Shown here piece after piece: positions 3,253 through 26,600 of a stretch of 64,000 nt of DNA. The notes beneath the pieces were generated by a model. It did no database searches, was not told the DNA's origin, and saw only the letters and a list, made by a program, of their open reading frames with translations. Numbering within the stretch: position 1 is the first letter of the stretch; every line of letters begins with the position of its first letter. Source of the DNA: Planktothricoides sp. SR001 (GTDB lineage: Bacteria > Cyanobacteriota > Cyanobacteriia > Cyanobacteriales > Laspinemataceae); the NCBI RefSeq assembly GCF_001276715.1, contig NZ_LIUQ01000003.1, forward strand, positions 106,334 through 170,333. Reading direction: 5' to 3'. The translations under genes were made by a program, and so were the position numbers.

Positions 3253-3400
3253 ACGGTTGGTTGTTGGTTGTTGTTTGTTATTTGTTATTTGTTATTTATT
3301 ATTTGTTATTTGTTATTTGTTATTTGTTATTTTTTATTTTTTCTAGGTTGACTGTTGACCGTTGGCGGTTGACGGTTGTTGACGGTTGATGGTTCTGTCT
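3253..3400. repeat. Tandem TTGTTAT / GTTGACGGTT repeats
   Basis: About a dozen heptamer units (GTTATTT type) at about 3267-3340 are followed by GTTGACGGTTG-type repeats at about 3350-3395. Similar GTTGGTT heptamer arrays occur in other spacers of this window (54.9 kb, 59.4 kb). No gene is seen. Confidence 0.7.
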
Positions 3401-3470: not shown

Positions 3471-3520
3471 ATATATTTGGACATATATTTGGACATATAT
3501 TTGGACATATATTTGGACAT
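3471..3520. repeat. 12-bp tandem repeat ATATATTTGGAC, about four copies
   Basis: Four near-perfect copies of a 12-bp unit, each itself AT-palindromic, end just downstream of the stop of the membrane-protein gene on the minus strand. They may be read through at the 3' end of that transcript. Confidence 0.8.
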
Positions 3521-4051
3521 TTATATATGTCGCCCCACCACTTGCTCGGCAACATGACTAATTCCGGGTATTTTGATTGAGCGACGTTGCCAGAGACGAA
3601 TCATTAACCAAACACTTACCACAAAATAGCTAGAGGTCAACAGGCTACTGATTAATAACAGGGGTAACTTCATCGATTCCGTAGCGTGGACGCCTGTTTC
3701 TAACAACAAGTGTCCCAAGAGCCAAGCTAAAGCGAGAGTGACAGATAAGCGACTAACGGTCATCTGTTCTTTGGTTCCCTGGCGTCGATACAAAGTCCAC
3801 AGGGACGGAAAAAAGCCGAATACGGGAATTAGATAATAAAATAGCACCGAACGATGAAAGTGGTGGGTTGATTCCGAGTCTGGCTCCTCATCAACCTCTG
3901 GTGAAGGGTTGGACAATTCAGGGGGTTGATCCATCCCCCATATGCCATATTTAGAACGGACTCGATGTTCACTGGCACTGAGGGAATTCCGGCGCGATGA
4001 CTCTGAGGCAGTGGGATGTTTGCTAGAGCTAGAATTAGAGTATTGCTTCAT
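3521..4051 (-). CDS. Hypothetical four-helix-type membrane protein
   Basis: I do not recognise a named family. The 176-residue protein has a Ser-rich polar N-terminus (about 1-70, including PSPEVDEEPDSES) and then about three hydrophobic segments: FYYLIPVFGFFPSLW, a TLALAWLLGHLLL region, and LLLISSLLTSSYFVVSVWL. It ends in a basic tail. The start at 4051 is favoured over an upstream ATG because GGAGG lies six bases before it and its ATGA overlaps the stop codon of the upstream protease gene by four bases. The two are therefore probably translationally coupled, and this protein may act with the exported protease. DUF4870-like proteins have a similar look; I cannot confirm that. Confidence 0.7.
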   Translation of the reverse strand: MKQYSNSSSSKHPTASESSRRNSLSASEHRVRSKYGIWGMDQPPELSNPSPEVDEEPDSESTHHFHRSVLFYYLIPVFGFFPSLWTLYRRQGTKEQMTVSRLSVTLALAWLLGHLLLETGVHATESMKLPLLLISSLLTSSYFVVSVWLMIRLWQRRSIKIPGISHVAEQVVGRHI

Positions 4052-5775
4052 TCTGACCTCCGGGAGTTGGCGGGAACAGTCCACCAGGCGATCGCATAAT
4101 CCTGGGTATTTTCATGCACCCGTTGCTTGTAATAAACGCGGATTTTGTAACGACCTGTTTTGGGAATTTGATAAAAAATATGTTCCAAGCTATCCACATC
4201 ACTGACTGAAGACCAAATCGCCTTTCTCGCCACATCTTGCTCAGAAAGACGACTGAGATCCTCATCGGCATTCAACAGATATAGATCGAGATTATTTAAC
4301 CCTTTATCGCTAAAAGTCTCACCGAGATCGTATAGACCATTATTATTCCCATCGTTGAGTTCTACCAAACGGTTCCAGTTGAGGGTAATCGAGACATAAC
4401 TCCCAGCGACTAACTCTTGGTCTAAAACGTAGTCATCAAAAGATTTTTCCGAAATGGTGCGGTAATTCCAACCGATCGCCGGGACTGGGGCATCGGGCTG
4501 CCATTGACCGGCACTAAACTGTTGATAAGCGCGGTAAGCATTGAGTTGACCACTACCCATTTCCCCGTCAAGAGGCAGTTTTTGGTCTCGGTAAGCTGGG
4601 GAACTCAGCCAGTCTTGTTTGCTATTGGCAAAAATAGTGCGGGTCATTCCCAAAGTTTTGCCGTCTCCATTATCTTTAATTTTATCGGTGGAGTTGACCA
4701 AAACCGCCTTCATCACTTGGGGATTACGAGCATCTAAAGTCCAATTGGGGATGTTTTCCTGGACAAGCAACTGGCGGAGTTGGCGATCGCTATATTCTTG
4801 CAACAAAGCCACCGTTGCCGTCACATGAGGCGCCGCAAAACTGGTGCCACTGGTTTGGGTAACTTGCCCATCCATCGTCATAATTTCCAGATTACTTCCT
4901 GGCGCGGCCAGAGTAATTAACCGACGATTATCCACATTTGACTCGAACCCGGTTAAACGACTAAAAACCCCAGTAAAATTCGTGCCTAAATTAGCCAAGT
5001 CAATTTTACTAAACACCCCGTTATACAGGGTCGTAAATGCCACATTCACCCCATTGTAATTATCCGTGGGAATCGGAATGCCGCCCATACCTTGGTTTCC
5101 GGCAATCACATACAGCACATCGTGTACTCGCGAAGACCAGTCCACACACAAAGTCAGCAACGCTTTACCATCGAGCCTCGCATTCGGTCGCGGATCTTCT
5201 TGTAAGGTTTCCCCAAAACTAAAATTAATCGCTCGGACATCGCCGCTATTTTGTAGGGCTAAATGTTGCGCTGCCAAACATTCCTCGGGCTGGGCGCTGC
5301 GCTGAAGCATTCCCACCGCTGTGGCATAGAGATTTGCATCAGGCGCCACCCCCCTCAAACGTTTGTCGGAACTAATCATCACCGACGCCACTTGTTCAGC
5401 GTGTTGCTCCGCTTGTTGTTTATTCGGTTCATTGATCGCATCAGCTTGATCATTGGGCGATTTATCTTGAAAAAACACTCGCGTCACGGGAATTTCCCGA
5501 TGACGGTTCACGGATTTATCAATGCCGAACTGTCGGGGTCTGCCAATATCGACCGCCCCAATGGAAATTTTTCGCCCCGTCAAGTTATAGGGCGGATTGT
5601 GCAGTCTGCGAGCGTCAATCCCCGCTTCTCCCACAGAAGTTTGTAAGGCCAAAGCCGGAATCCCTAATAACGCCAAGGCGATCCCACCCGTAATGAATCC
5701 AATTTTTTTCGATACCAGTGGCTTAGACAACGATTCAACTCCCTCAAATCTCAAACAGTTATGGACTTTCGTCAA
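4048..5775 (-). CDS. S8 family (subtilisin-like) serine peptidase
   Basis: An exported serine protease of 575 residues. A signal/anchor segment lies at about 25-44 (GFITGGIALALLG). The likely catalytic triad is Asp76 (IGAVDIG), His125 (EQHAEQVASVM, a divergent form of the usual HGTHVAG) and Ser312 (GTSFAAPH). The region after about 420 (Trp-rich, NNNGLYDLGE) resembles a pre-peptidase C-terminal or jelly-roll domain. The first ATG is at 5775; a TTG about 15 codons later, just before LSKPLV, has a better GGGAG site and would give a more typical signal peptide. The next gene overlaps its stop by four bases. Family sure; substrate unknown; the altered His motif deserves checking. Confidence 0.85.
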   Translation of the reverse strand: MTKVHNCLRFEGVESLSKPLVSKKIGFITGGIALALLGIPALALQTSVGEAGIDARRLHNPPYNLTGRKISIGAVDIGRPRQFGIDKSVNRHREIPVTRVFFQDKSPNDQADAINEPNKQQAEQHAEQVASVMISSDKRLRGVAPDANLYATAVGMLQRSAQPEECLAAQHLALQNSGDVRAINFSFGETLQEDPRPNARLDGKALLTLCVDWSSRVHDVLYVIAGNQGMGGIPIPTDNYNGVNVAFTTLYNGVFSKIDLANLGTNFTGVFSRLTGFESNVDNRRLITLAAPGSNLEIMTMDGQVTQTSGTSFAAPHVTATVALLQEYSDRQLRQLLVQENIPNWTLDARNPQVMKAVLVNSTDKIKDNGDGKTLGMTRTIFANSKQDWLSSPAYRDQKLPLDGEMGSGQLNAYRAYQQFSAGQWQPDAPVPAIGWNYRTISEKSFDDYVLDQELVAGSYVSITLNWNRLVELNDGNNNGLYDLGETFSDKGLNNLDLYLLNADEDLSRLSEQDVARKAIWSSVSDVDSLEHIFYQIPKTGRYKIRVYYKQRVHENTQDYAIAWWTVPANSRRSE

Positions 5776-5831
5776 TTTTTGTTAATATTTTTAGAATAGA
5801 GGCTTGAGAACACCACTACACTCCTTAAACC

Positions 5832-6539
5832 ATGACCCAGACCAAATCAGAAAAACCAATTGTAATTTCCCCTTCTATTCTATCAGCGGATTTTAGCCGC
5901 TTGGGTGAGGAAATTCGCGCCGTAGATGAGGCGGGCGCTGACTGGATCCATGTTGATGTGATGGACGGTCGGTTTGTCCCGAATATTACCATCGGGCCAT
6001 TAATTGTTGATGCCATTCGCCCGGTGACGAAAAAACCCCTAGATGTCCACTTGATGATTGTGGAACCGGAAAAGTATGTGGCAGATTTTGCCAAAGCTGG
6101 GGCAGATATTATTTCCGTCCATGCCGAACATAATGCTTCTCCCCACCTGCATCGTACCCTTTGCCAGATTAAAGAACTCGGCAAGCAGTCTGGAGTGGTC
6201 CTTAATCCTTCTACTCCCTTAGACTTGATCGAATATGTCCTGGAAGTTTGCGATCTGGTGTTGATTATGAGCGTCAACCCTGGGTTCGGCGGCCAAAGCT
6301 TTATTCCTGAAGTGGTGCCCAAGATCCGCAAGTTGCGGCAAATCTGCGCGGAAAAAGGTCTCGATCCCTGGATTGAGGTTGACGGCGGATTGAAAGCCAA
6401 TAATACCTGGCAAGTTCTGGAAGCTGGTGCTAATGCAATTGTTGCCGGTTCTGCGGTGTTTAACGCTAAAGACTATAAAGCAGCGATTGAAGGTATTCGC
6501 CATAGTAAGCGACCAGAACGGGAATTAGTCACAGCATAA
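5832..6539 (+). CDS. rpe: Ribulose-phosphate 3-epimerase
   Basis: Interconverts ribulose 5-phosphate and xylulose 5-phosphate in the Calvin cycle and the pentose phosphate pathway. The 235-residue length is normal for the family. Signature motifs are intact: SPSILSADF at the N-terminus, [33 protein letters not shown], and EVDGG near the C-terminus, which together hold the metal-binding His/Asp residues and the phosphate-binding loop. It is divergent from the protease gene with a 56-bp spacer, and is followed by an inverted repeat that may end its transcript. Confidence 0.97.
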
Positions 6540-6552
6540 AAAGTAAATAAAA

Positions 6553-6618
6553 AGTAATGGGTCGGGGAAAGTTGGGGATTGGGTATATCCTAAGTCCCCC
6601 GCCCCATTACCCATTACT
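6553..6618. terminator. Inverted repeat between rpe and the DsbA-like gene
   Basis: AGTAATGGGT (6553-6562) and ACCCATTACT (6609-6618) form a 10-bp stem whose interior also pairs GGGG with CCCC. It sits between convergent genes. A clear T-tract is missing, so termination is inferred. Confidence 0.45.
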
Positions 6619-6677
6619 AAGCTGAGATGATAGCTGAGATGATAAGTGAGAATTGCCACTTTTCTCAGATCGCAAGT

Positions 6678-7427
6678 CTAAGATTGTTTCACTTTTGCCA
6701 AGATTTGCTCGATTTCCGGGAGTTCTAAGGCACCGGAAAAGGCTTCTTCATTCAGGAAAAAGAAGGGAGTGCCGTTAATTCCTAGCTGACGGGCTAATTG
6801 AACGTCTTGATTAATGGCGGCTTCCGCTTCTTTGCTCTGGCGATCGCGATTAAATTTATCTAAATCCAGATTTAAATTTTCGGCGATCGCCACATACAAA
6901 TTTTCTCCTAGATCCTTTTGCTGTTCAAACAAAGCATCGTAATATTCCCAGAATTTTCCTTGTTGTTGGGCAGACCAAGCCGCTTTCGCCGCAGGCATTG
7001 CTTGGGGATGAATTGAAGCCAAAGGTAAATGTTTATAAGTTAAAGTCACTTCACCTTTATATTTCTCCATGAACCCTTTGATGGTCTGATGCGCCCGGGC
7101 ACAAAATGGACATTGAAAGTCGGAAAACTCCACTAAGACTATTTTTTGTTCAGCAGCCCCAACGGTGGGAGAATTGCCAATCACTGCCGCCGGATTTGTC
7201 AGCATTTGTTGTAAAAATGCTTGTCGGGCTGCCCGCATCTGATTTTCTTCTTGTTGCTGATAAGCTTGCACGGACTCGATAATCACTTGTGGATTATCAC
7301 GAATAATCTGTAATACCTGTTCTTCTAGTTTTTGATTGTCCGTCGTTCCTGTGGTACACCCGGTCAAAGCGATGCAACCGATTAAAAAACTGGTGACAAG
7401 AAAACTGATTAAGCGAAACCGCTTCAT
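6678..7427 (-). CDS. DsbA-like thioredoxin-fold lipoprotein
   Basis: A 249-residue predicted lipoprotein: basic start MKRFR, hydrophobic segment, and lipobox LTGC with the cysteine near residue 24. The thioredoxin/DsbA fold follows. LVEFSDFQCPFC contains the redox CPFC pair (about residue 107), and GTPFFF supplies the cis-proline loop (about 221). The family makes or isomerises disulphide bonds in the periplasm or lumen (Thioredoxin_4/DSBA type). A helical stretch at 35-80 precedes the fold, as in BdbD-like proteins. It is a single gene, convergent with rpe. No DsbB or VKOR partner is next to it. Confidence 0.88.
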   Translation of the reverse strand: MKRFRLISFLVTSFLIGCIALTGCTTGTTDNQKLEEQVLQIIRDNPQVIIESVQAYQQQEENQMRAARQAFLQQMLTNPAAVIGNSPTVGAAEQKIVLVEFSDFQCPFCARAHQTIKGFMEKYKGEVTLTYKHLPLASIHPQAMPAAKAAWSAQQQGKFWEYYDALFEQQKDLGENLYVAIAENLNLDLDKFNRDRQSKEAEAAINQDVQLARQLGINGTPFFFLNEEAFSGALELPEIEQILAKVKQS

Positions 7428-7560
7428 AGATCACCTCATGGGTTAGATTTCTAATTATTTAGCCATTCTATATTAAGGGTTAGCTCCAGAAAACAACATA
7501 AAACAGGATGAAAAAGCCGATTTTTATAGCAAATCGGCGCGATCGCGAAATGATGAACAA

Positions 7561-10500
7561 TTATGACTGGAGCCAACGATGTTTTCCCCCCAGTTGCTGG
7601 CTGGAATCAGCGGATTTCAAAATTTGCTGAATCTCTTGAAGTAACTCTTCCTTGGATAGTGAATTGGGTAAAACTTTCGTGGCAATTTCTTTGAGAAAAG
7701 ACAAAAATTCCCGCGAAATCAGCTGCTGATGACTGTCCGAATTGCCCCGTAAATCCGATCTATGATGATGCCACAGGGTTTCCCGGTCATACATAATTAA
7801 AATTTGCGGTTTATGAGCCAGATTTGCGATCGCTTTTAAACCATTAACCATTGGCTCGACCAAGTGATCTAGCGGAATATAGATCAACAGTAAATCCACA
7901 CTTTGTTGTTGAATAAGCTGCCACACTTCAGACCAAGAACGACCGAGCGCCGCATTTAAATTTGCCGATTGCAGATCCAAAATTATTTCTAGCAAATTTT
8001 GAATTTGTGATGAAATTTTTTCCCCTTCACTTTCCTCATAATTCCTATCAAAGCTTAAACCGTTAAACCGAGTTTGATAAAATTCTGGTAACGCCGAAAT
8101 ATCGAGCGCTAAAATATTAGGCTTTTTCTGAATTTGCGCCGCCAGATTAAGTACCTGTGATAAGTATTGAGCCGATGGCATCCTCCAATGGGCTGACGCA
8201 TTTTGTCCAGCATCAGAATGACTATCAGAATAATTACCCTGAGCATAATTACCCTGAGCATAATTACTCTGAGCATAATTATTCTGAGCATAATTACTCT
8301 GAGCATAATTACTCTGAGCATAATTACCCTGAGCATAATTACCCTGAGCATAATTACCCTGAGCATAATTACTCTGAGCATAATTACTCTGAGCATAATT
8401 ACTCTGAGCATAATTACTCTGAGCATAATTACCCTGAGCATAATTACTCTGAGCATAATTACCCGCTGAGGTAACCATGTTAACAGAATCTTCAAGGATT
8501 CCCGACTCATAGTCTCCGGTATTTTCTGGGTTGATTGGTGCATCAACTAAACAAGGAAAGACAATCAAGCCCGGAACTTGATTCGCCCCCTCAGTTGTAG
8601 CCAAATCCATTGTCACAATTGGCAATTTACCCAAGAGTCTAGACTGACTTAATTCTTGGAAAAAGACTCTAGGTTCTGGCAGGGCGGCTGCCGCTTCAAT
8701 TAAGATCACTTGCGGCTGCCAAATTTCTGCCAACAGTTCTGCTTGTTCTAAATCATCCGCTTCTAAAATTTGGTAAGCTTTTCCAGACTGAATCTTTAAT
8801 CCTTGAATTAAAGCCGCATTGGTACTATCCACATTCGCCGTTAACCGCAGAATTGTCAGTTTGCTAGTGTGAAGATTTTGGACTTCGGGTAATTCCACTG
8901 GCACTAAATTCCGTAGCTGATCTTGTAATTCTGATGCCGTCAGTGGCAGACTCAAGCAGCCATCAGCGCGATATTTTTTGGCTCGTTTTTTATCCACCAC
9001 CGTAGCGGTTAAAATAACTGGAATATGACCCGTTTGTGGATCGGATTTCAGCAAGGTCAGTAAATCCCAACCGGAAAGTAAAGGCAACAAAGGATTGACA
9101 AAAATAACACAAGGTTGTAAACGGCGAGCTTTTTCCAACGCATCAATCCCACATCGAGAAATTGCCACCCGATAGCCGAGCCGGATCAACTGCTCATGCA
9201 ACTCTTCCACGTATTGAGGTGCGGCCTCAACAATTAAAATTAATAGCTGATCTCGGACGGGAAATTTCTTGATTGTCCCGGATTCTGGGGGAGAAGGTGG
9301 CAGCAAAATGGTAAACTGACTGCCTTTTTCTTCCTTGGAGATAAAGGTGACATCTCCACCGTGCGATCGCGCTAATCCCTGGGTGATCACTAACCCTAAA
9401 CCCGTCCCTTCAAATCGACGAGTCAAGGGATTTTCTAGTTGCTGGAATCTTTGAAAGATTAAATGCTGTTTATCCGCCGGAATGCCAATTCCCGTATCCC
9501 AAACCGTAAAAGCAATCCAACCTTGCCAGCGGTTGACTTTTAAGCCAATTTCTCCTTCTGGAGGGGTAAACTTGAGAGCATTTGACAGCAGATTGTAAAG
9601 CATCTGACGCAGGCGCAAATGATCGGTGAGGATCGTGTTTAAACCTGGTTCAATTTCCAGAGTGAACTTAGGGGAAGACTCAACACTGTGGTGGCCTGCG
9701 GCCAATTCCATTTGCTGAGTTTCCTGGGCTTGTTGCAAGGCGTACTCACACACTTGTGCAATCTGAACTGGTTCCCAATTCAGTTGAAGCTGACCCGTTT
9801 CAATCCGGGTCAAATCCAAAATATCATTGACGACTCTCATTAGATGTTGCCCGCTCTGATAAATCATTTTGGCATAACGAGCTTGACGTTCGTTCAGCGG
9901 ACCGAGGGCTTGATCTTTTAGGAGAGTAGACAATCCTAAGACTGCGGTGAGAGGAGTTTTGAGTTCATGGCTAATACAGGCTAAAAATTCATCTTTGAGT
10001 CGATTTAGTTGGACTAAATCCGCGTTTTTGGCCACGAGTTCTTGGGCCACTTGCTGCTGTTCAGTGACATTTTCCGCCAAAATTAGCCATAAAGAAATGG
10101 GGGATTCTGACGGGCTATCCCGCTCCGGTTCTGGGGATGATATTTGGCTGATGGTGAACTCAGATGCCCGCTCGTCGCTCTCTAGGGTCAATTTTCGGGA
10201 AATCATCCCAGATTTTAGGGGCGCAAAGGCTTGATGTGACGTTGGCGATGATGATTCTCTGGCTTGGACAACCCCTTTGATGGGATGTTCCGGCGGCGAT
10301 CGCAGTTTTTTCGACTGAGATGGTTCACCAGAATCGTTGCTATATTTGGCAGGCCAAAATTCTTGGGAACCGAGGGGCAAGAGGATCTCAAACATTGATA
10401 AATCAATCTCTAGCGGAATTTTGAAAAATTTCCAAGCTTGTTCGGATCCATTGGTCAAAGAACACATTAAAGTCGCTTCTGACTCACTATCGCTGAATAA

Positions 10501-11310
10501 ATGGCTCACACGGGTTGCCAAAGGTTCGGCTAATTCTGTCTCCTGGGGGATGGACTCTGCGGTGGTCGTGGGGAAGACTTGACCGACTGAGAGGTTGCCC
10601 AATTCTTGACGCCAAGCCAAATTTTCCACGATCATCTGACCCTCCTGGGTTTGCACCTTAACCGGAAACGGCAGAGGCGAAATCACTTGTTGAATGGCAG
10701 CGATCTCCAGAGGATCCAGAAAATCCCTGGCCTCAACAGTTTTTTGGCCTGGTTCAACCTCATGTTCAGGTTCATTTCCAGAATAGACGCTGATTCGGCT
10801 GGTATTTTTGGGATTTTCTGGTTGGTGGCGGCGATTATTTTGGCAGATAATTTCTTGTAGCTGGTAGTGATGGGCTAAAAATTGGAGTAAGCCCTTCATA
10901 TCCAGCAACCCCAATAATTTGCCCTCTGGGTTGACCACTCCCCAATCTTCATTATTAATATTACAGGTTGTTAATTTATTTAATTTCATCCAGAATTCTC
11001 TCACGGAGAGGTTTCCTGGTACAATTTTGATGGGCTGGATCAGCTCGTGTACCATTGCTGAATGTGGATGCGGTAGGATAGAAGATTGTCGCTCAGAAAA
11101 TTGTTCGCCAGAATTCAAATAGGGGATTAAACTGTGTAAGTAGAGGACTCCAATAGGTAATTCTTCTGGGTTGACCACGGCAATGCGATCGCCCGTGACC
11201 CAGAGTTCTTGACGACTTAAGCTAGACCACAAATCTCTAGAACAAGTGGTTAAACTACAAGTCGGTACAGGAACAATAAATTCTTGAATCAGACAATTTG
11301 GGCTTAACAT
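7561..11310 (-). CDS. Large hybrid histidine kinase with degenerate receivers, divergent from kaiA
   Basis: A 1249-residue sensor kinase with no membrane segment evident. A CBS-like pair occupies about 1-165 (AVVNPEELPIGVLYL and WGVVNPEGKLLGLLD). The dimerisation/phosphoacceptor helix holds His448 (SHELKTPLTAVLGL). The ATPase domain at about 555-680 has an N box (LLSNALKF), DTGIGIP and GTGLGLVI. Receiver-like modules follow at about 687-805 and 812-930, and a third probable one at about 1040-1190. Their acidic pockets are altered: ILIVEAA replaces the Asp pair, and VIFVNPLLP and VILIEAAAAL lack the phosphoacceptor Asp, so they look like pseudo-receivers. A 15-copy NYAQ pentapeptide array (about 953-1027) links the second and third. 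It is not SasA (no KaiB-like domain). Placement beside kaiA, which also has a pseudo-receiver, suggests but does not prove a clock link. Confidence 0.9.
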   Translation of the reverse strand: MLSPNCLIQEFIVPVPTCSLTTCSRDLWSSLSRQELWVTGDRIAVVNPEELPIGVLYLHSLIPYLNSGEQFSERQSSILPHPHSAMVHELIQPIKIVPGNLSVREFWMKLNKLTTCNINNEDWGVVNPEGKLLGLLDMKGLLQFLAHHYQLQEIICQNNRRHQPENPKNTSRISVYSGNEPEHEVEPGQKTVEARDFLDPLEIAAIQQVISPLPFPVKVQTQEGQMIVENLAWRQELGNLSVGQVFPTTTAESIPQETELAEPLATRVSHLFSDSESEATLMCSLTNGSEQAWKFFKIPLEIDLSMFEILLPLGSQEFWPAKYSNDSGEPSQSKKLRSPPEHPIKGVVQARESSSPTSHQAFAPLKSGMISRKLTLESDERASEFTISQISSPEPERDSPSESPISLWLILAENVTEQQQVAQELVAKNADLVQLNRLKDEFLACISHELKTPLTAVLGLSTLLKDQALGPLNERQARYAKMIYQSGQHLMRVVNDILDLTRIETGQLQLNWEPVQIAQVCEYALQQAQETQQMELAAGHHSVESSPKFTLEIEPGLNTILTDHLRLRQMLYNLLSNALKFTPPEGEIGLKVNRWQGWIAFTVWDTGIGIPADKQHLIFQRFQQLENPLTRRFEGTGLGLVITQGLARSHGGDVTFISKEEKGSQFTILLPPSPPESGTIKKFPVRDQLLILIVEAAPQYVEELHEQLIRLGYRVAISRCGIDALEKARRLQPCVIFVNPLLPLLSGWDLLTLLKSDPQTGHIPVILTATVVDKKRAKKYRADGCLSLPLTASELQDQLRNLVPVELPEVQNLHTSKLTILRLTANVDSTNAALIQGLKIQSGKAYQILEADDLEQAELLAEIWQPQVILIEAAAALPEPRVFFQELSQSRLLGKLPIVTMDLATTEGANQVPGLIVFPCLVDAPINPENTGDYESGILEDSVNMVTSAGNYAQSNYAQGNYAQSNYAQSNYAQSNYAQSNYAQGNYAQGNYAQGNYAQSNYAQSNYAQNNYAQSNYAQGNYAQGNYSDSHSDAGQNASAHWRMPSAQYLSQVLNLAAQIQKKPNILALDISALPEFYQTRFNGLSFDRNYEESEGEKISSQIQNLLEIILDLQSANLNAALGRSWSEVWQLIQQQSVDLLLIYIPLDHLVEPMVNGLKAIANLAHKPQILIMYDRETLWHHHRSDLRGNSDSHQQLISREFLSFLKEIATKVLPNSLSKEELLQEIQQILKSADSSQQLGGKHRWLQS
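8231..8464 (-). repeat. 15-nt in-frame minisatellite, 15 full copies plus a partial
   Basis: Units of 15 nt (taattaccctgagca and one-base variants) run from 8231 to 8455, followed by a partial unit. On the coding strand each encodes Asn-Tyr-Ala-Gln plus Gly, Ser or one Asn. The repeat length is a multiple of three, so copy-number change would lengthen or shorten the linker without breaking the kinase frame. Confidence 0.97.
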
Positions 11311-11706
11311 CGCAAAACTTCGTGAAAAATTACATCAGTGGTTAGTTGAGGGTGTACCATGAGCGCTTTGACTCTCTCCTGGTGACTCAGCCTTCAGCAA
11401 ATCCCAGCTAGTTGATCGTGAAGTTACCGGGGGAAAGATTTGGTGCCGTCAATATGGGCGGGGATCAACTTTCCAGTTCTAGTCAACGAGGAGATAGCAC
11501 CTTGCCAATCCCTGAACAATACTTATGGATCAGGGCTACCACTTAATTATCGATCTAGGAGGGAACTTACAGCATTGCCATTACAATTAGTTACAGTTAT
11601 TCTAAAAAGGTAAAAGTCCCCCACCAACTTGTGATTGGGCAATTCTTTTTTTTTTCTTTTATTTTTGATTGATAGTGAACATAAGGTATTTTGAGGGATT
11701 ACTGTT
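11311..11706. promoter_or_regulatory. Divergent control region between the kinase and kaiA
   Basis: A 396-bp spacer with no gene that I can see. It separates two divergent transcripts and must hold both promoters. The kaiA-proximal 130 bp is AT-rich with a long T tract (about 11647-11665), and GAGGGA lies nine bases before the TTG start of kaiA. I could not pick a confident -35/-10 pair. Confidence 0.5.
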
Positions 11707-12654
11707 TTGCCTCCCCAACTTTCTCTTTGTACGTTTGCCAGTTCTGAATCCCTGTCTAATTCGCTGAAGCAGTCTTTAGGCAGCGGTCGCTATCTGGTGA
11801 ATCACTTCCACTCTGAGTCAACTTTCTTGGAGTTTTTGGATTTGGAAAAACAGCAGATCGACTGTCTGATCTTACAAGCACAATCCTCTCTAGGCAAATT
11901 AAGCAACGAGTTGCATCAGCGATCGACCGTGCTCCCCGCCGTGATCGTCTATGAAACTTTCCCCGAAAAAGCTGATCGGCCACTCACTCCATTGTCCTTC
12001 CCCACCAAGGAGGATCCGCTCCGTGCAGTTCCCGATCGAGAGGAAACAGAAATAGAAACAGGGTATCCCACAGTTTTTTATCATACGGCTGAGGTTCACA
12101 TTTCCTTTCTTCAGGTGCCTGACATCTCTCGCTATATTGAGCAAGCGATTAGTCAATTCCTGAATTTGTCTCCCAGCTTTCGCAAAAGCAATTCTGTTAA
12201 TCCTATTGAGCAAAGTTCCGAGAATTCCGTGCAAAAATTTCTCGTCCAACACCAAAATCGGTTGGCGGAAAAATTGAGGGAACGATTAGGATACTTAGGT
12301 GTGTATTATAAACGAAACCCTCAACGCTTTCTGCGTAACTTACCCTCCGTAGAGCGAAAACAATTTTTAGAAAATCTTAAGTCCGATTATCGTGACATTG
12401 TTCTGAATTACTTTTCCGATCAACCGAGAATCTTAAATCAGCAGATTGATGAATTTGTCAATAATGCTTTCTTTGCTGATGTTTCCGTGACTCAAATTGT
12501 CGAAATTCACATGAATTTGATGGATGAATTTTCTAAGCAGCTAAAATTAGAAGGCCGCAGTGAGGAAATTCTGCTAGACTACCGTTTGACTCTAATTGAT
12601 ATCATTGCACATTTATGTGAAATGTATCGACGTTCTATCCCGCGAGACTCTTAG
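11707..12654 (+). CDS. kaiA: Circadian clock protein KaiA
   Basis: Stimulates KaiC autophosphorylation by binding its C-terminal A-loop. The 315-residue protein has the N-terminal pseudo-receiver (about 1-165, with QIDCLIL in the degenerate receiver core) and the highly conserved four-helix C-terminal dimer/KaiC-binding domain (about 205-315). Its landmarks are RLGYLGVYYKR, FLRNLP, NAFFADV, VEIHMNLMDEF, EGRSEEILLDYRLTLID and the terminal EMYRRSIPR. It is about 30 residues longer than the Synechococcus protein, mostly in the linker around 90-130. The start is a TTG with GAGGGA upstream. First gene of kaiABC; kaiB follows after 86 bp. Confidence 0.97.
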   Translation: MPPQLSLCTFASSESLSNSLKQSLGSGRYLVNHFHSESTFLEFLDLEKQQIDCLILQAQSSLGKLSNELHQRSTVLPAVIVYETFPEKADRPLTPLSFPTKEDPLRAVPDREETEIETGYPTVFYHTAEVHISFLQVPDISRYIEQAISQFLNLSPSFRKSNSVNPIEQSSENSVQKFLVQHQNRLAEKLRERLGYLGVYYKRNPQRFLRNLPSVERKQFLENLKSDYRDIVLNYFSDQPRILNQQIDEFVNNAFFADVSVTQIVEIHMNLMDEFSKQLKLEGRSEEILLDYRLTLIDIIAHLCEMYRRSIPRDS

Positions 12655-12740
12655 AAGAATTTTTCGGGCAGACTCACTCGTGATGCTAAGGCGTCGAGCG
12701 GTCAAAATTCTCAAGAATTAATTATTTCACTTTTCGATCC

Positions 12741-13055
12741 ATGAATAATCCTAAAAAAACTTATGTTCTCAAGCTCTATGTGGCAGGAAACACCCCGAAT
12801 TCAGTTCGGGCTTTAAAAACCCTGAAAAATATTCTGGAAGAGGAATTTCAAGGCGTCTATGCCCTGAAAGTGATTGATGTCCTCAAAAATCCGCAATTAG
12901 CTGAAGAAGACAAAATTTTAGCCACGCCCACTTTATCCAAAATATTGCCACCCCCCGTGAGAAAAATCATTGGGGATCTTTCAGACCGGGAAAAAGTATT
13001 AGTTGGTTTAGATTTACTCTATGAAGAATTGTCTGAAGAAAATTCAGGAATATAG
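12741..13055 (+). CDS. kaiB: Circadian clock protein KaiB
   Basis: A 104-residue thioredoxin-like, fold-switching protein that binds phosphorylated KaiC, sequesters KaiA and helps relay output. Conservation is near complete over [18 protein letters not shown], the helix [31 protein letters not shown] and [12 protein letters not shown]. The C-terminal acidic tail is usual for cyanobacterial KaiB. It lies between kaiA and kaiC; the 130-bp gap to kaiC carries a possible extra promoter. Confidence 0.98.
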
Positions 13056-13110
13056 ATGCAAATGCCTCGGCTCTCTGAATTACCGGGAATCAGGGAGTCA
13101 TTGAGCGGTC

Positions 13111-13137
13111 TTGACTTTTGACGATTTTTTTTATGGT
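13111..13137 (+). promoter_or_regulatory. Possible promoter upstream of kaiC
   Basis: TTGACT at 13111-13116 and TATGGT at 13132-13137 are separated by 15 bp, in the kaiB-kaiC gap. Spacing is short and the -10 is imperfect. Many cyanobacteria transcribe kaiB and kaiC together, so this may be a secondary start or nothing. Confidence 0.25.
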
Positions 13138-13185
13138 AGACTCCAGAGACAGTAAAATTATTGGTTAGGTTAGATAACTAAAGCT

Positions 13186-14751
13186 ATGATTCGTAATCAG
13201 CCAAATCAGGTGGAAGACTTGCCAAAAGGCGTTCAAAAAATTCGCACTGTGATTGAAGGATTTGATGATATCAGTCATGGAGGAATGCCGGCAAGTCGGA
13301 CGACTTTAGTCAGTGGTACTTCCGGCACAGGTAAAACTTTGTTTGCGATTCAGTTTCTCTATAATGGAATTATTAATTTTGATGAACCGGGCGTGTTTGT
13401 CACTTTTGAGGAATCGCCTACAGATATCATTAAAAATGCGTATAGTTTTGGTTGGGATTTAGGCAAACTGGTTAATGAAGGCAAGTTGTTTATTCTCGAT
13501 GCCTCTCCGGATCCCGAAGGACAAGATGTGGTTGGCAGTTTTGATTTATCGGCGCTGATTGAAAGAATCCAATACGCTATTCGTAAGTACAAAGCTAAAC
13601 GGGTTTCTATCGATTCGGTGACGGCGGTTTTTCAACAATATGATGCGGTTTCGGTGGTCAGACGGGAAATCTTTCGCTTGGTGGCTCGACTCAAGCAAAT
13701 GAGTGTGACGACGGTGATGACGACAGAACGGGTGGAAGAGTACGGCCCGGTGGCCCGATTTGGCGTGGAAGAGTTTGTGTCAGATAATGTGGTGATTCTG
13801 CGGAACGTTTTGGAAGGTGAACGCCGTCGCCGCACTTGTGAAATTTTAAAGCTGCGAGGGACAACTCACATGAAAGGGGAGTACCCGTTTACGATTACCA
13901 GTGATGGGATTAATATTTTCCCCTTGGGGGCGATGCGCTTAACCCAGCGTTCGTCTAATGCTCGCGTTTCTTCTGGGGTGAATACCCTGGATGAAATGTG
14001 TGGCGGTGGATTTTTCAAAGATTCGATTATTTTGGCGACTGGGGCAACCGGGACGGGTAAGACTCTGTTGGTGAGTAAGTTTTTGGAAGATGCTTGTACG
14101 AATGGGGAACGAGCGATTTTATTTGCTTATGAGGAGTCCCGCGCTCAACTCTTGAGAAATGCCTATTCTTGGGGGATTGATTTTGAAGAGATGGAGAAAA
14201 AGGGTTTGTTGAAAATCCTTTGTGCTTATCCAGAGTCAGCAGGTTTGGAAGATCATTTGCAGATTATTAAGACTGAGTTGGTGGAGTTTAAGCCTTCTCG
14301 GATGGCGATCGATTCTTTGTCGGCTTTGGAACGTGGGGTGACGAATAATGCTTTCCGCCAGTTTGTGATTGGCGTTACCGGGTATGCGAAGCAGGAAGAA
14401 ATCACGGGTTTCTTTACGAATACTACGGATCAATTTATGGGGGCGCATTCGATTACGGAATCTCATATTTCGACGATTACGGATACGATTTTGATGTTGC
14501 AATATGTGGAAATTCGCGGGGAAATGTCTCGGGCGCTGAATGTGTTTAAGATGCGTGGGTCTTGGCATGATAAGGGGATTCGAGAATATACGATTAGTGA
14601 GAAAGGCCCGGATATTCGCGATTCTTTCCGCAATTATGAACGGATTATTAGTGGTTCTCCGAGTCGAATTTCTGTGGATGAGAAGACTGAGTTATCTCGC
14701 ATTGTTAAGGGGGTGCAAAATAAGTTAACGGATGATTTGAACGATGAATGA
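13186..14751 (+). CDS. kaiC: Circadian clock ATPase/kinase KaiC
   Basis: The core clock protein: two RecA-like domains that form a hexamer, CI hydrolysing ATP slowly and CII carrying autokinase/phosphatase activity. Walker A motifs are at residues 44-51 (GTSGTGKT) and 286-293 (GATGTGKT). Paired catalytic glutamates are seen in FEESP and YEESR. The phosphosites equivalent to Synechococcus Ser431/Thr432 are Ser429 and Thr430 in SHISTITDT. The C-terminal A-loop region (ISGSPSRISVDEK) that KaiA binds is intact. Length 521 is normal. Third gene of the kai cluster, followed by a tandem repeat and a strong hairpin. Confidence 0.98.
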   Translation: MIRNQPNQVEDLPKGVQKIRTVIEGFDDISHGGMPASRTTLVSGTSGTGKTLFAIQFLYNGIINFDEPGVFVTFEESPTDIIKNAYSFGWDLGKLVNEGKLFILDASPDPEGQDVVGSFDLSALIERIQYAIRKYKAKRVSIDSVTAVFQQYDAVSVVRREIFRLVARLKQMSVTTVMTTERVEEYGPVARFGVEEFVSDNVVILRNVLEGERRRRTCEILKLRGTTHMKGEYPFTITSDGINIFPLGAMRLTQRSSNARVSSGVNTLDEMCGGGFFKDSIILATGATGTGKTLLVSKFLEDACTNGERAILFAYEESRAQLLRNAYSWGIDFEEMEKKGLLKILCAYPESAGLEDHLQIIKTELVEFKPSRMAIDSLSALERGVTNNAFRQFVIGVTGYAKQEEITGFFTNTTDQFMGAHSITESHISTITDTILMLQYVEIRGEMSRALNVFKMRGSWHDKGIREYTISEKGPDIRDSFRNYERIISGSPSRISVDEKTELSRIVKGVQNKLTDDLNDE

Positions 14752-14800
14752 TGGGATGAGTGATGGGATGAGTGATGGGATGAATGATGGGATGATTTAG
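14747..14800. repeat. 12-bp tandem repeat ATGGGATGAGTG, about four copies
   Basis: The array begins at the kaiC stop codon itself and would be part of the kaiC 3' untranslated region. Unit variation is one base (AGTG/AATG). Confidence 0.85.
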
Positions 14801-14893
14801 TGGGTTGTTTGCCGAGCCGATCGCATTAAGGGCGATCGCGGCTTTAGGCCAGCATATTTGGCTCTGACATATTGATCTATTGATGACCTTAAT

Positions 14894-14952
14894 CATCCGA
14901 ATCTTAGGGGCAATTGATCGAGGCCCCCTAGGTTTCGGATGAAGTTTTTATT
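14894..14952 (+). terminator. Strong hairpin terminator downstream of kaiC
   Basis: A 17-bp stem (14894-14910 with 14925-14941, 15 of 17 paired, ends CATCCGAA / TTCGGATG) with a 14-nt loop is followed by AAGTTTTTATT. This is the best candidate for ending the kai transcript. Confidence 0.7.
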
Positions 14953-14992
14953 AAATAAATGTGGATTAAATAAATGTGGATTAAATAAATGT
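14946..14992. repeat. 15-bp tandem repeat ATTAAATAAATGTGG, three copies
   Basis: Three exact units follow the kaiC terminator. The rest of the 14953-15455 spacer has no gene I can support; it also contains a T-arm-like fragment near 15150 and a hairpin at 15190-15221. Confidence 0.8.
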
Positions 14993-15189
14993 GCCTGAGT
15001 TCTGTGCTAGAAAATGGTAGCCCTAGCTTTATTGGGCAATTTTGTTAGTACCACCGCAGTGAGTGAAATTTGAGTGAGATGATATTACGGCGATTATTGA
15101 TAAAAAACCCGATCGGCCTTAGCCTATGAGGATCTAAATTAAATCAGGATGATAGGTTCAAATCCGCTTCCTGCCAGCAAATTATCGCA

Positions 15190-15221
15190 AAACCCTGTGA
15201 CCAAAATTGGTTGCAGGGTTT
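15190..15221. other. Long hairpin in the spacer upstream of the DUF697 gene
   Basis: AAACCCTG at 15190-15197 pairs with CAGGGTTT at 15214-15221, and ACCAA pairs with TTGGT inside, giving 13 of 15 pairs. It is followed by GGTTTTGTTT, which would suit a weak plus-strand terminator. Its parent transcript is unknown. Confidence 0.4.
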
Positions 15222-15455
15222 GGTTTTGTTTAGGGGCGAACCATTCTGGCAGATAGTTTTTCCGTGGAGATGGCCGTTTGCGCCGCTGTTGCTTCGCCCA
15301 GCCTGATGACAGAATGGAGATGCTCTCTGTTGTTTTATGTCTGTAGCTCTGAGCATTAGAATAGAGTTGACGCAAGAGTCAAAATTTAGAGGGAATTATT
15401 GGACTCGGTTTGACTCTTCTGTGTCAACATCATTTAAACAAAATTCTTATAGTGG

Positions 15456-16919
15456 GTGGTGACTATGAAGTTACAGCGGCCTATTTTATGGGGCGGAGTT
15501 AGCCTATCTTTGGGTTTGTGGCTGTTTGATAGTTTTTCGCATTCCCTGGAAGGGGTGGGAGAAGTTGGGGTGTTGGGCGCGATCGCCCTGGGGACTGGTT
15601 TGTGGTGGTATAAACAGCGATCGCCTCTACCGGCTAAGGTTTCCGCCCCTGTGGATCGAGAAACCTTGTCCAAGGCTATTGCTGGGGTGAAAGAGGCGAT
15701 CGCTCAGTTGGCAACGGAGGCAGAAAATTGTGAGGCGATCGGTGAACTCCGCTCCCAACAAGAACAGCTATCGGCCCAATTGGATCGCCAAGAGTTGCGA
15801 CTGTTGGTGACAGGTGGCAAAGCGGTGGGCAAAACTAAGTTGATGCAGCTTTTGCAAGCAAGTAGTCAGCAGTTTGGAAAATTAACTTTCACGGAAACCG
15901 AGGCTTTATTTAGCAAAACTGACCGCGATCGACAGGTTAAACCGAACCTGACTCTAGAAGATTTGGTAATTTTTGTCACGACTGGGGATTTAACCAGTTC
16001 TGAACTGAATCATTTACAGCAATTGGCTATAGCTAATGTGCGGATTTTGGTGGTGGTGAACAAACAAGACCAATATCTAGAAACTCAAAAAGCGACGATT
16101 TTACAACAAGTTCGTAATTGCTTAGAAGGCATTTTAAATAAGGATGATGTGGTGGGGGTTTGCGCGGCTCCGGCGCCGGTGAAGGTGCGACAATATCAAG
16201 CGGATGGTTCGGTGCAAGAAAAAATGGAACAACCAATGGCGAATATTACTGGGTTGTGCGATCGCCTTAGTCATATTTTAGCCACGGAAAAATCAGCTTT
16301 GGTTTTTGCTAGTACCTTGCGGGCTGCCAATGGCTTAAAAGCGGAGATCAAAACTTTGCTGAACCAAGTCAGACGCGATCGGGCGATGCCCATGATTGAA
16401 CAATCTCAATGGGTGGCTGCGGCTGCGGCTTTTGCTAACCCCGTCCCCGCTTTGGACTTGCTTTCTACGGGGGCTGTGACCGGGCAATTAGTGGTAGATT
16501 TGGGCAAAATTTATCAACAGAAATTTTCCCTGGAACAAGGACAAGCGATCGCTCGTACTCTAGCGGAACAAATGGTTAAATTAGGGTTAGTAGAACTTTC
16601 TACCCAAGCCATTACCTCAATTCTGAAAAGTAACGCCATCACTTTTGTGGCAGGTGGTGCGGTTCAGGGAATTAGTGCGGCTTATTTAACTCGGTTAGCC
16701 GGTTTAAGTTTGCTGGAATATTTCCAAGCCCAAGAACTAACTAGCGATTTATCTTCTGGGGATAAATTGGCACAATTAAGCCAAACTATTAAGCAGGTTT
16801 TTGAGCAAAATCAGCGGATTGCTTTTCTACAATCTTTTGTCCAAAAAGCGGTGAATTATTTGCCAAATAACAAAGCAATTCCCTCGTTCCCAGGCTCCAG
16901 CCTGGGAATGCCAGTCTAG
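15456..16919 (+). CDS. DUF697 (YcjF-like) P-loop membrane protein
   Basis: A 487-residue protein. Two short hydrophobic stretches (about 8-25 and 35-50) anchor the N-terminus. A P-loop GGKAVGKT is at residues 120-127. The GTPase-like core is degenerate: FVTTGDL stands where the DxxG switch would be, but VVNKQD at about 198 gives a good guanine-specificity NKxD motif. A DUF697 domain (about 315-450: NPVPALDLLSTGA) with amphipathic helices follows. Such proteins are thought to act at membranes as dynamin- or Era-like regulators; the actual role is unknown. A GTG at 15456 or the ATG three codons later could start it. The last dozen residues are encoded by a dispersed palindromic repeat. A better-preserved relative lies at 32567-33988. 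Confidence 0.8.
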   Translation: MVTMKLQRPILWGGVSLSLGLWLFDSFSHSLEGVGEVGVLGAIALGTGLWWYKQRSPLPAKVSAPVDRETLSKAIAGVKEAIAQLATEAENCEAIGELRSQQEQLSAQLDRQELRLLVTGGKAVGKTKLMQLLQASSQQFGKLTFTETEALFSKTDRDRQVKPNLTLEDLVIFVTTGDLTSSELNHLQQLAIANVRILVVVNKQDQYLETQKATILQQVRNCLEGILNKDDVVGVCAAPAPVKVRQYQADGSVQEKMEQPMANITGLCDRLSHILATEKSALVFASTLRAANGLKAEIKTLLNQVRRDRAMPMIEQSQWVAAAAAFANPVPALDLLSTGAVTGQLVVDLGKIYQQKFSLEQGQAIARTLAEQMVKLGLVELSTQAITSILKSNAITFVAGGAVQGISAAYLTRLAGLSLLEYFQAQELTSDLSSGDKLAQLSQTIKQVFEQNQRIAFLQSFVQKAVNYLPNNKAIPSFPGSSLGMPV

Positions 16920-23674: not shown

Positions 23675-26600
23675 ATGGATTTTTTTAATCAATTGGCGAA
23701 GGATTTAAGTCAGGGTTGGAATGATTTTACGCAAGAAATGGAGTTAACGCTTAATCAAAAATTTGTTCAACTTTATAATGAATTGGCAAAGGATTTAAGT
23801 CAGGGTTGGAATGATTTTACGCAAGAAATGGAGTTAACGCTTGGTCAACAAGCTGTTCAACTTTATAATGAATTGGCAAAGGATTTAAGTCAGGGTTGGA
23901 ATGATTTTACGCAAGAAATGGAGTTAACGCTTAATCAAAAATTTGTTCAACTTTATAATCAAGGTAATTTTAATGAAGCCATAGCCATTGCTAAACAAGC
24001 ATTAACTTTAGCGAAATCCCTTCACCCAGGCGATCATGCTGATGTGGCACTCAGTCTGAATAACTTGGCAGCAGTCTACAACTCCCAAGAACGCTACGCG
24101 GAAGCTGAACCTCTCTACATACAGGCATTACAGATGATAAAACGCCTATTTAATGGCGACCATCCCTATGTAGCAATCAGTCTGAATAACTTGGCAGGAC
24201 TTTACAGAAACCAAGGACGCTACTCTGAAGCCGAACCTCTCTACATACAGGCATTAGAGATGAGAAAACGTCTGTTTAATGGCGACCATCCTAATGTGGC
24301 AATCAGTCTGAATAGTTTGACATTACTCTACGGTTCCCAAGGACGCTACGCGGATGCTGAACTCCTTTGCCTACAAGCATTAGAGATGAGAAAACGCCTA
24401 TTTACAGGCGACCATGCTGATGTGGCAGAAAGTCTGAATAACTTGGCATATCTCTACAAATCCCAAGCACGCTACGCGGAAGCTGAACCTCTCTACCAAC
24501 AGGCTTTAGAGATGACAAAACGCCTATTTAAAGGCGACCATCCTGATGTAGCACAAAGTCTGAATAACTTGGCAGGACTCTACTACTCCCAAGCACGCTA
24601 CGCGGAAGCTGAACCTCTCCTGCAACAGGCATTAGAGATGACAAAACGCCTATTTAAAGGCGACCATCCTAATGTAGCAGGCAGTCTGAATAACTTGGCA
24701 TATCTCTACTACTCCCAAGCACGCTACGCGGAAGCTGAACCTCTCCTGCAACAGGCATTAGAGATGATAAAACGCCTATTTACAGGCGACCATCCTAATG
24801 TGGCAACCAGTCTGAATAACTTGGCAGGACTCTACTACTCCCAAGGACGCTACGCGGAAGCTGAACTCCTTTGCCTACAAGCATTAGAGATGATAAAACG
24901 CCTATTTACAGGCGACCATCCTAATGTGGCACAAAGTCTGAATAACTTGGCAGGACTCTACTACTCCCAAGGACGCTACGCGGAAGCTGAACCTCTCCTG
25001 CAACAGGCATTAGAGATGAGAAAACGCCTATTTAAAGGCGACCATCCTGATGTAGCACAAAGTCTGAATAACTTGGCAGGACTCTACGATTCCCAAGGAC
25101 GTTACGCCGAAGCTGAACCTCTCTACAAACAGGCATTAGAGATGACAAAACGCCTATTTACAGGCGACCATCCCTATGTGGCAACCAGTCTGAATAACTT
25201 GGCAGGACTCTACAAATCCCAAGGACGCTACGCGGAAGCTGAACCTTTCTACAAACAGGCTTTAGAGATGATAAAACGCCTATTTAAAGGCGATCATCCT
25301 GATGTAGCATCCAGTCTGAATAACTTGGCAGGACTCTACAAATCCCAAGGACGCTACGCGGAAGCTGAACCTCTCTACAAACAGGCTTTAGAGATGATAA
25401 AACGCCTATTTACAGGCGACCATCCTGACGTAGCAACCAGTCTGAATAACTTGGCAGAACTTTACAGAACCCAAGGACGCTACGCGGATGCTGAACCTCT
25501 GCACAAACAGGCGTTAGAGATGAGAAAACGCCTATTTTCTAGCGACCATCCTGATGTGGCAATCAGTCTGAATCACTTGGCATTACTCTTAGTTGCTACA
25601 AACCAGCCCCAGGATGCTTTTGAAAAACGGCAGGAAGCGATCGCAATGGAAACTCGCTTGATTCAACGTAATTTTGCTTTTAGTTCAGAACAAGAACGAC
25701 TGCAATCAATTAAAAATAATCGACCAAGTTTTGATGCTTTCCTCTCCTTAGTTTCTCAATATTTCTCCAACGCTCCCGAACAAGTCCAAAAAGCCTTAGA
25801 TGTCGTTCTCAACCGCAAATCTCTGACCGCAGCAGCGTTAGCAGCCTTTAATTTTGCCATCCATAGTCAACGCTATTCCCACCTCAAACCCCTATTTAAT
25901 GATCTCCAGTCAAAGCAACAACAACTTTATCACCGTCGATATAACCCACCCCTTCCCGAACCGGAACAACCCATAGAACTTTATCGCATTCGTTTGCGAA
26001 ACTATCAAAAAGATATTGCCGAATTAGAACAACAATGTCAACAGTTAGAAAAGCAACTTTCCGCCGAAGTTCCCGAAATTCGACTCGACCATCAAACCCT
26101 CGATCGCCGCGCCGTTGCCTTAGAATTACCCGCTAATACGGTATTAGTAGAATATGTGCGGTTCGATCGCTATGATTTTACTGCCCCCGAAGGTGAAAAC
26201 TGGCAATCTGCCGAATATTGGGCGTTTATTTTACCTGCCCAAAAACCCGATGCGGTGCAGATGATTCCATTAGGACCAGCGCAACCGATTGATAATTTAA
26301 TTGAAAAAGTGCGAAAAGTTTTATCCTTAGAAAATCCACCATCCACAATGGCAAGAGGAGGCGCGAAAAAAGGAAGTCAAACACAATTAAACCCTTATGA
26401 ATACCATCCCCAAGAACCCAACGCCTTACGCGAAAAAATCTTTAGTCCTCTCATTTCTATCCTACAAAATTATCAAAACATTCTGATAGCTCCCGATTCC
26501 GAATTAAGCCTAATTCCCTTTGGGGTTTTGCCAGTGGATGAAACCGGCCAACAATTATTAAGAGACAAATATCAAATCAGTTATCTCAGTAGTGGGCGAG

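Follow-up and report, generated by a model that had tools for sequence, protein, structure and literature searches.

The window analysed here, a 64,000-nt stretch of the Planktothricoides sp. SR001 genome, carries an open reading frame for a hybrid histidine kinase that is divergent from the kaiA gene of a kaiABC group, and the kinase reading frame contains a tandem array of 15-nt units. The genes and the domains of the kinase are as follows.

7561..11310, minus strand: ORF of the hybrid histidine kinase (1249 aa), facing away from kaiA
9793..9996, minus strand: HisKA domain with His448 (Pfam)
9295..9624, minus strand: HATPase_c domain (Pfam)
8914..9240, minus strand: receiver domain 1, with Asn at the expected phospho-acceptor Asp (Pfam PF00072, E 2.1e-11)
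8122..8862, minus strand: putative receiver-like (pseudo-receiver) domain 2, split by the insertion (weak PDB profile matches, low-confidence models)
7564..8121, minus strand: putative receiver-like domain 3, missing from several orthologues (PDB profile matches, best E 0.051)
11707..12654, plus strand: kaiA (Pfam KaiA, 1e-63)
12741..13055, plus strand: kaiB (Pfam KaiB, 4.9e-31)
13186..14751, plus strand: kaiC (Pfam KaiC, 2.4e-123)

A kai-linked kinase and its receiver-like domains

The features that define a hybrid histidine kinase (HisKA with its histidine, HATPase_c, and a receiver) are all found by Pfam, and His448 is invariant across 16 aligned kinase sequences. The attached receiver 1 has no phospho-acceptor Asp: Asn739, which aligns to the Asp position of a solved receiver, is nearly invariant in the orthologues, one of which (L032) has Asp there. 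With Asn at this position, the kinase probably has no functional receiver of its own and is predicted to signal to a different protein.

A receiver fold for domain 2 is weakly suggested by profile comparisons. Searched against the PDB at E values up to 10, the domain 2 profile (A3) returned four sequences, all of them response regulators, led by a weak match to KdpE (E 0.083); the domain 3 profile (A4) returned 12, the best nine of which are response regulators (best E 0.051) and three of which are not. Direct comparison with receiver 1 using hhalign gave weak probabilities of 16% for domain 2 and 2% for domain 3, and the domain 2 profile matched the other domains in three proteins only at noise level (E 0.16 and worse). 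AlphaFold models, built from a two-row alignment of the window's kinase and the L031 orthologue, lend at most slight support, with mean pLDDT of 34.7 and 34.9 and poor modelling even of the true receiver 1. At this low pLDDT the L031 model alternates strands and helices and places a strand at VFPCL, then a loop, then a helix, while the model of the window's kinase has the helix and gives VFPCL no strand.

The linkage to the clock genes extends well beyond this species. Of 40 genomes of the order, the window's own excluded, 38 encode KaiA near the kinase on the opposite strand, and 37 of those 38 have KaiB and KaiC nearby as well. By batch, KaiA was found in 20/20 (L032-L051) and 18/20 (L144-L163) genomes, and KaiB with KaiC in 19/20 and 18/20. 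Two exceptions (L148 and L162) have no Kai protein at E 1e-8 within 19 kb, and a third (L041) has only a partial KaiA match. The 40 genomes were chosen from kinase matches with enough flanking contig and not by their kai genes; six come from one genus, so they are not 40 independent cases. Of 388 genomes from the order, 320 have a match to profile A3 at E 1e-6, nearly all of them a single one. A literature search by title and abstract opening found no name for this kai-linked hybrid kinase.

The array and its place in domain 2

The array occupies a loop of domain 2, whose parts, in coding order, are given below.

8548..8562, minus strand: presumed last strand (beta5) of domain 2, VFPCL, aa 917-921, with the same sequence or a close variant in orthologues
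8176..8547, minus strand: expanded loop, aa 922-1045, placed by alignments; 124 aa up to SAQYL, or 128 aa by the helix-motif measure
8452..8466, minus strand: first, degenerate unit of the array at its 5' (coding) edge, GCGGGTAATTATGCT (AGNYA)
8227..8451, minus (coding) strand: 15 full 15-nt units CAG-RRT-AAT-TAT-GCT, reading Q-S/G/N-N-Y-A, the last unit with NYS
8134..8175, minus strand: presumed last helix (alpha5) of domain 2, SAQYLSQVLNLAAQ, which is ALLQVIQVAAG in many orthologues

Tandem Repeats Finder (TRF) reports the array at 8230-8462 with a period of 15, 15.5 copies, 96% matches, no indels, and a score of 417, and its 15 full in-frame units bear out the original prediction of a fifteen-copy repeat inside the kinase. 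Fourteen of the 15 units are CAG-[AGT/GGT/AAT]-AAT-TAT-GCT, the final one having TCT at its end. The variable second codon is AGT in eight units, GGT in six, and AAT in one; every unit variant alters the amino acid and there are no synonymous differences among the 15 units, as expected of a young array. The order of the variants shows no block structure (8 runs, P 0.32). The 77-aa array core is made up of 17 Asn, 16 Tyr, 15 Ala, 15 Gln, 8 Ser, and 6 Gly, without a charged residue, in keeping with the hydrophilic, Asn/Tyr/Gln-rich stretch that had been predicted; its tyrosines, one per five residues, are 16 of the 35 in the whole kinase.

The repeat is confined to this species in the genomes searched. 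A two-unit pattern with up to three mismatches has 15 matching places in the 7.07 Mb genome, all within the array, and with up to two mismatches it occurs in one of 386 genomes in a sample of the phylum from which the same-species strain G413 was left out, namely its own, and in 0/385 others. A protein search for NYAQ-like sequence gave matches at E 0.001 in 33 of 291 genomes, two of them belonging to the Planktothricoides species of the window; the best match outside the species (E 1.9e-8, 50% identity, in a 71-aa frame) and its like are taken for low-complexity matches. In literature searches on coding minisatellites and tandem repeats in cyanobacteria, sticker repeats, repeat-linker kinases, and period repeats, no listed title or abstract opening concerned the kinase.

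The array had been read as a linker between two receiver-like domains; the alignments place it inside one of them. In a 15-row orthologue alignment, a variable-length loop, which holds the array, separates GLxVFPCL (or a close variant) from ALLQVIQVAAG after it; the third domain begins past this alpha5-like helix, at PxILVVD. Seven orthologues (L151-L155, L157, and L158) have no domain 3 and terminate 0-6 residues from the helix match. This assigns the helix to domain 2 and makes the array an insertion within that domain, between its last strand and last helix. In a receiver the site would be the beta5-alpha5 loop, and the array looks like part of an exposed surface loop. By the 124-aa measure the loop consists of a 29-aa lead, the 77-aa array, and an 18-aa tail.

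Outside the Planktothricoides species of the window, the array was found in none of the 50 other genomes in which the loop was read. In 45 genomes the loop, taken as the stretch between VFPCL and the helix motif, measures 9-19 aa, and in three more in which the motif script failed (G003, G440, and G450) it is of similar size by eye; it is longer in G004 (41 aa), in the sole congener, G001 (52 aa), and in both strains of the window's species (128 aa). The same three Planktothricoides genomes stand apart in the profile search: among the matches listed for domain 2, only the two conspecific genomes (at model position 115) and the congener (at 123) stop before position 130. The congener, which was also the sole return of a related-locus search on named genomes, has a Tyr/Ser-rich, non-repetitive loop. 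This suggests that the loop was already lengthening before the array arose, unless the congener lost the array.

Repeat turnover and selection

A second genome of the species, strain G413, is assembled as one contig of 7.2 Mb. The kinase ORF of G413, with its array, is the same as that of the window, so the predicted variation of linker length among strains was not seen, although only two strains are compared and the 12.3 kb around the array (window positions 3498-15799, with the kinase and kaiABC) shows zero differences between them, making this a weak comparison of copy number. Over 275 kb, in alignments of at least 3 kb, divergence between the strains is 0.54% of sites, and the differences are clustered where their positions were listed. 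The array is present in both conspecific strains, with equal copy number (n=2), and absent from the congener and the 49 other genomes.

Repeats elsewhere in the genome do change in length. TRF finds 200 arrays in 391 kb, of which 143 could be mapped between the strains by their flanks and 57 could not. Of the mapped 143, twenty are longer or shorter in one strain than in the other, not all by clean copy-number changes (one by +1309 nt, and one by -7 in a 9-nt array), and among in-frame arrays with at least five copies three of six differ, the kinase array being one of the unchanged three. Repeats therefore move in this species while the kinase array is unchanged between the two strains, which, in an identical neighbourhood, says little. 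In the window itself, a heptamer array at 3268-3339 is 21 nt longer in G413, and by flank mapping in-frame arrays within 23682-25589, with 90- and 126-nt units, are 177 and 126 nt shorter there; heptanucleotide arrays are frequent in the window (at 1215, 1609, 3268, 54906, and 59357).

In-frame minisatellites are common in the SR001 genome: 58 of the 200 arrays sit in stop-free frames of at least 250 codons, which are open frames and not curated genes, and 48 of these 58 have a period divisible by three. The kinase array has the top score (417) among arrays with units of up to 30 nt in the 391 kb, the runner-up scoring 348.

With the congener as reference, omega is low in HisKA-HATPase (0.09), receiver 1 (0.12), and the domain 2 core (0.13) and higher in domain 3 (0.43), the N-terminal part (0.48), and the loop (0.61, from 48 poorly alignable codons); the kinase as a whole has 0.35. 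These values indicate that the kinase core is under purifying selection and that the loop is nearly relaxed. KaiA, KaiB, and KaiC have omega values of 0.08, 0.008, and 0.015, and the kinase evolves much faster than these neighbours, mostly outside its catalytic core.

Probable origin of the array and comparison with known systems

We think it probable that slippage expanded the array recently, and in this species alone, within a permissive loop of a conserved kinase linked to kaiABC, and that the insert has little effect. Repeated in-frame duplication of a 15-nt unit, by replication slippage or unequal exchange, would have built the minisatellite; the array would persist, as a 77-aa uncharged, Tyr/Asn/Gln-rich, and probably disordered insert, because the loop that leads from the last strand to the last helix of domain 2 tolerates length change; and the kinase would remain functional, the insert most likely having little or no selected function and being close to neutral. 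Everything observed is accounted for by such a recent in-frame expansion, with no further assumption. Two observations could nevertheless be turned against it. The array is the top-scoring one and is identical in two strains while others vary, which could reflect constraint, and the congener's loop is already long and Tyr/Ser-rich, which may mean that expansion was favoured.

The alternatives give the array a function, or deny its reality. An unlikely one is that evenly spaced tyrosines in an uncharged Asn/Gln/Ser/Gly context promote self-association, so that the kinase clusters or the alpha4-beta5-alpha5 face of domain 2 is covered. The regular tyrosines and zero charge of the array would suit such a role, as would its site, which would adjoin the alpha4-beta5-alpha5 face, described as a common receiver surface for dimerisation and partner binding (PMC12632262). 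The pseudo-receivers of CikA and KaiA are likewise described as binding partners or quinones (PMC12632262), so an insertion at this face could matter. Against this reading, the argument from the array itself is one of composition, and the array is conserved in no other species read.

A less probable alternative is that copy number sets the behaviour of the kinase, perhaps as clock input or output, as length does for the Drosophila period Thr-Gly repeat and may do for the Neurospora WC-1 polyQ. The array is in frame, its unit is a multiple of three, and the kinase adjoins kaiABC; in the fly (PMC4709423) and in Neurospora (PMC1949147), the length of a clock-protein repeat is reported to be tied to clock traits. 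Set against this are the same copy number in the only second strain and the lack of the array in the congener and in the 49 further genomes read, and kai linkage by itself is no proof of a clock role for the kinase. Clock tuning by the array is at present unsupported and would require a clock role, length alleles, and a phenotype. The two ideas can be combined, in that a species-specific Tyr-rich sticker on the partner-binding side of a pseudo-receiver might, through copy-number-dependent self-association, set the activity of a clock-adjacent kinase, which we regard as very improbable. If this combined reading were true, the array would be a bacterial counterpart of the eukaryotic clock-protein length repeats.

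There is scarcely more than a slim chance that the repeat acts through mRNA or DNA structure, or in another frame, rather than as a peptide. The coding-strand RNA is better folded than its dinucleotide shuffles (z -6.9), but equal or better folding is seen in 53 of 300 arrays of column-permuted units, so this unit is not exceptional, and RNA structure was rejected as the array's function; the other frames are open across the array because the 15-nt unit is stop-free. Least credible of all is an assembly artefact giving a wrong copy number or a spurious array: the SR001 assembly is in 165 contigs and tandem repeats are described as prone to misassembly (PMC6868369), but the single contig of G413 has the identical array and ORF.

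Taken by itself, the array adds another case to the many in-frame minisatellites of this genome. Its use is to point out where, in a conserved kinase, a loop would tolerate large insertions, which offers a handle on the role of domain 2; if the insert alters the kinase, it would also be a route to studying repeat length in a bacterial clock-linked signalling protein. The wider value lies in the kinase, with three receiver-like domains here and linkage to kaiABC across an order of cyanobacteria.

Like other bacterial in-frame coding minisatellites, the array consists of head-to-tail, near-identical units with a period that is a multiple of three, inside an ORF. Copy-number polymorphism is usual for such loci, whereas none was seen here in one strain pair with identical surroundings. 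The likeness to the period Thr-Gly and WC-1 polyQ repeats is that of an in-frame low-complexity repeat, in this case in a protein whose gene adjoins clock genes, and the period analogy of the original prediction would draw its whole footing from the kinase adjoining kaiABC; the differences are that no length alleles were seen in two strains and that here a pentapeptide is repeated in the putative pseudo-receiver loop of a kai-linked kinase. The best NCBIfam match of the kinase is HrmK (NF038297), over HisKA-HATPase-receiver, but at 279 bits it falls far under the 725-bit cut-off and membership was rejected. CikA, a kinase of circadian input, has a GAF domain ahead of HisKA as well as a pseudo-receiver. 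The kai-linked kinase resembles it as a histidine kinase with one or more receiver-like domains that have no phospho-acceptor Asp; unlike CikA, it has no Pfam match to GAF at E 0.1, and it differs further in having three receiver-like domains and in being encoded beside kaiA.
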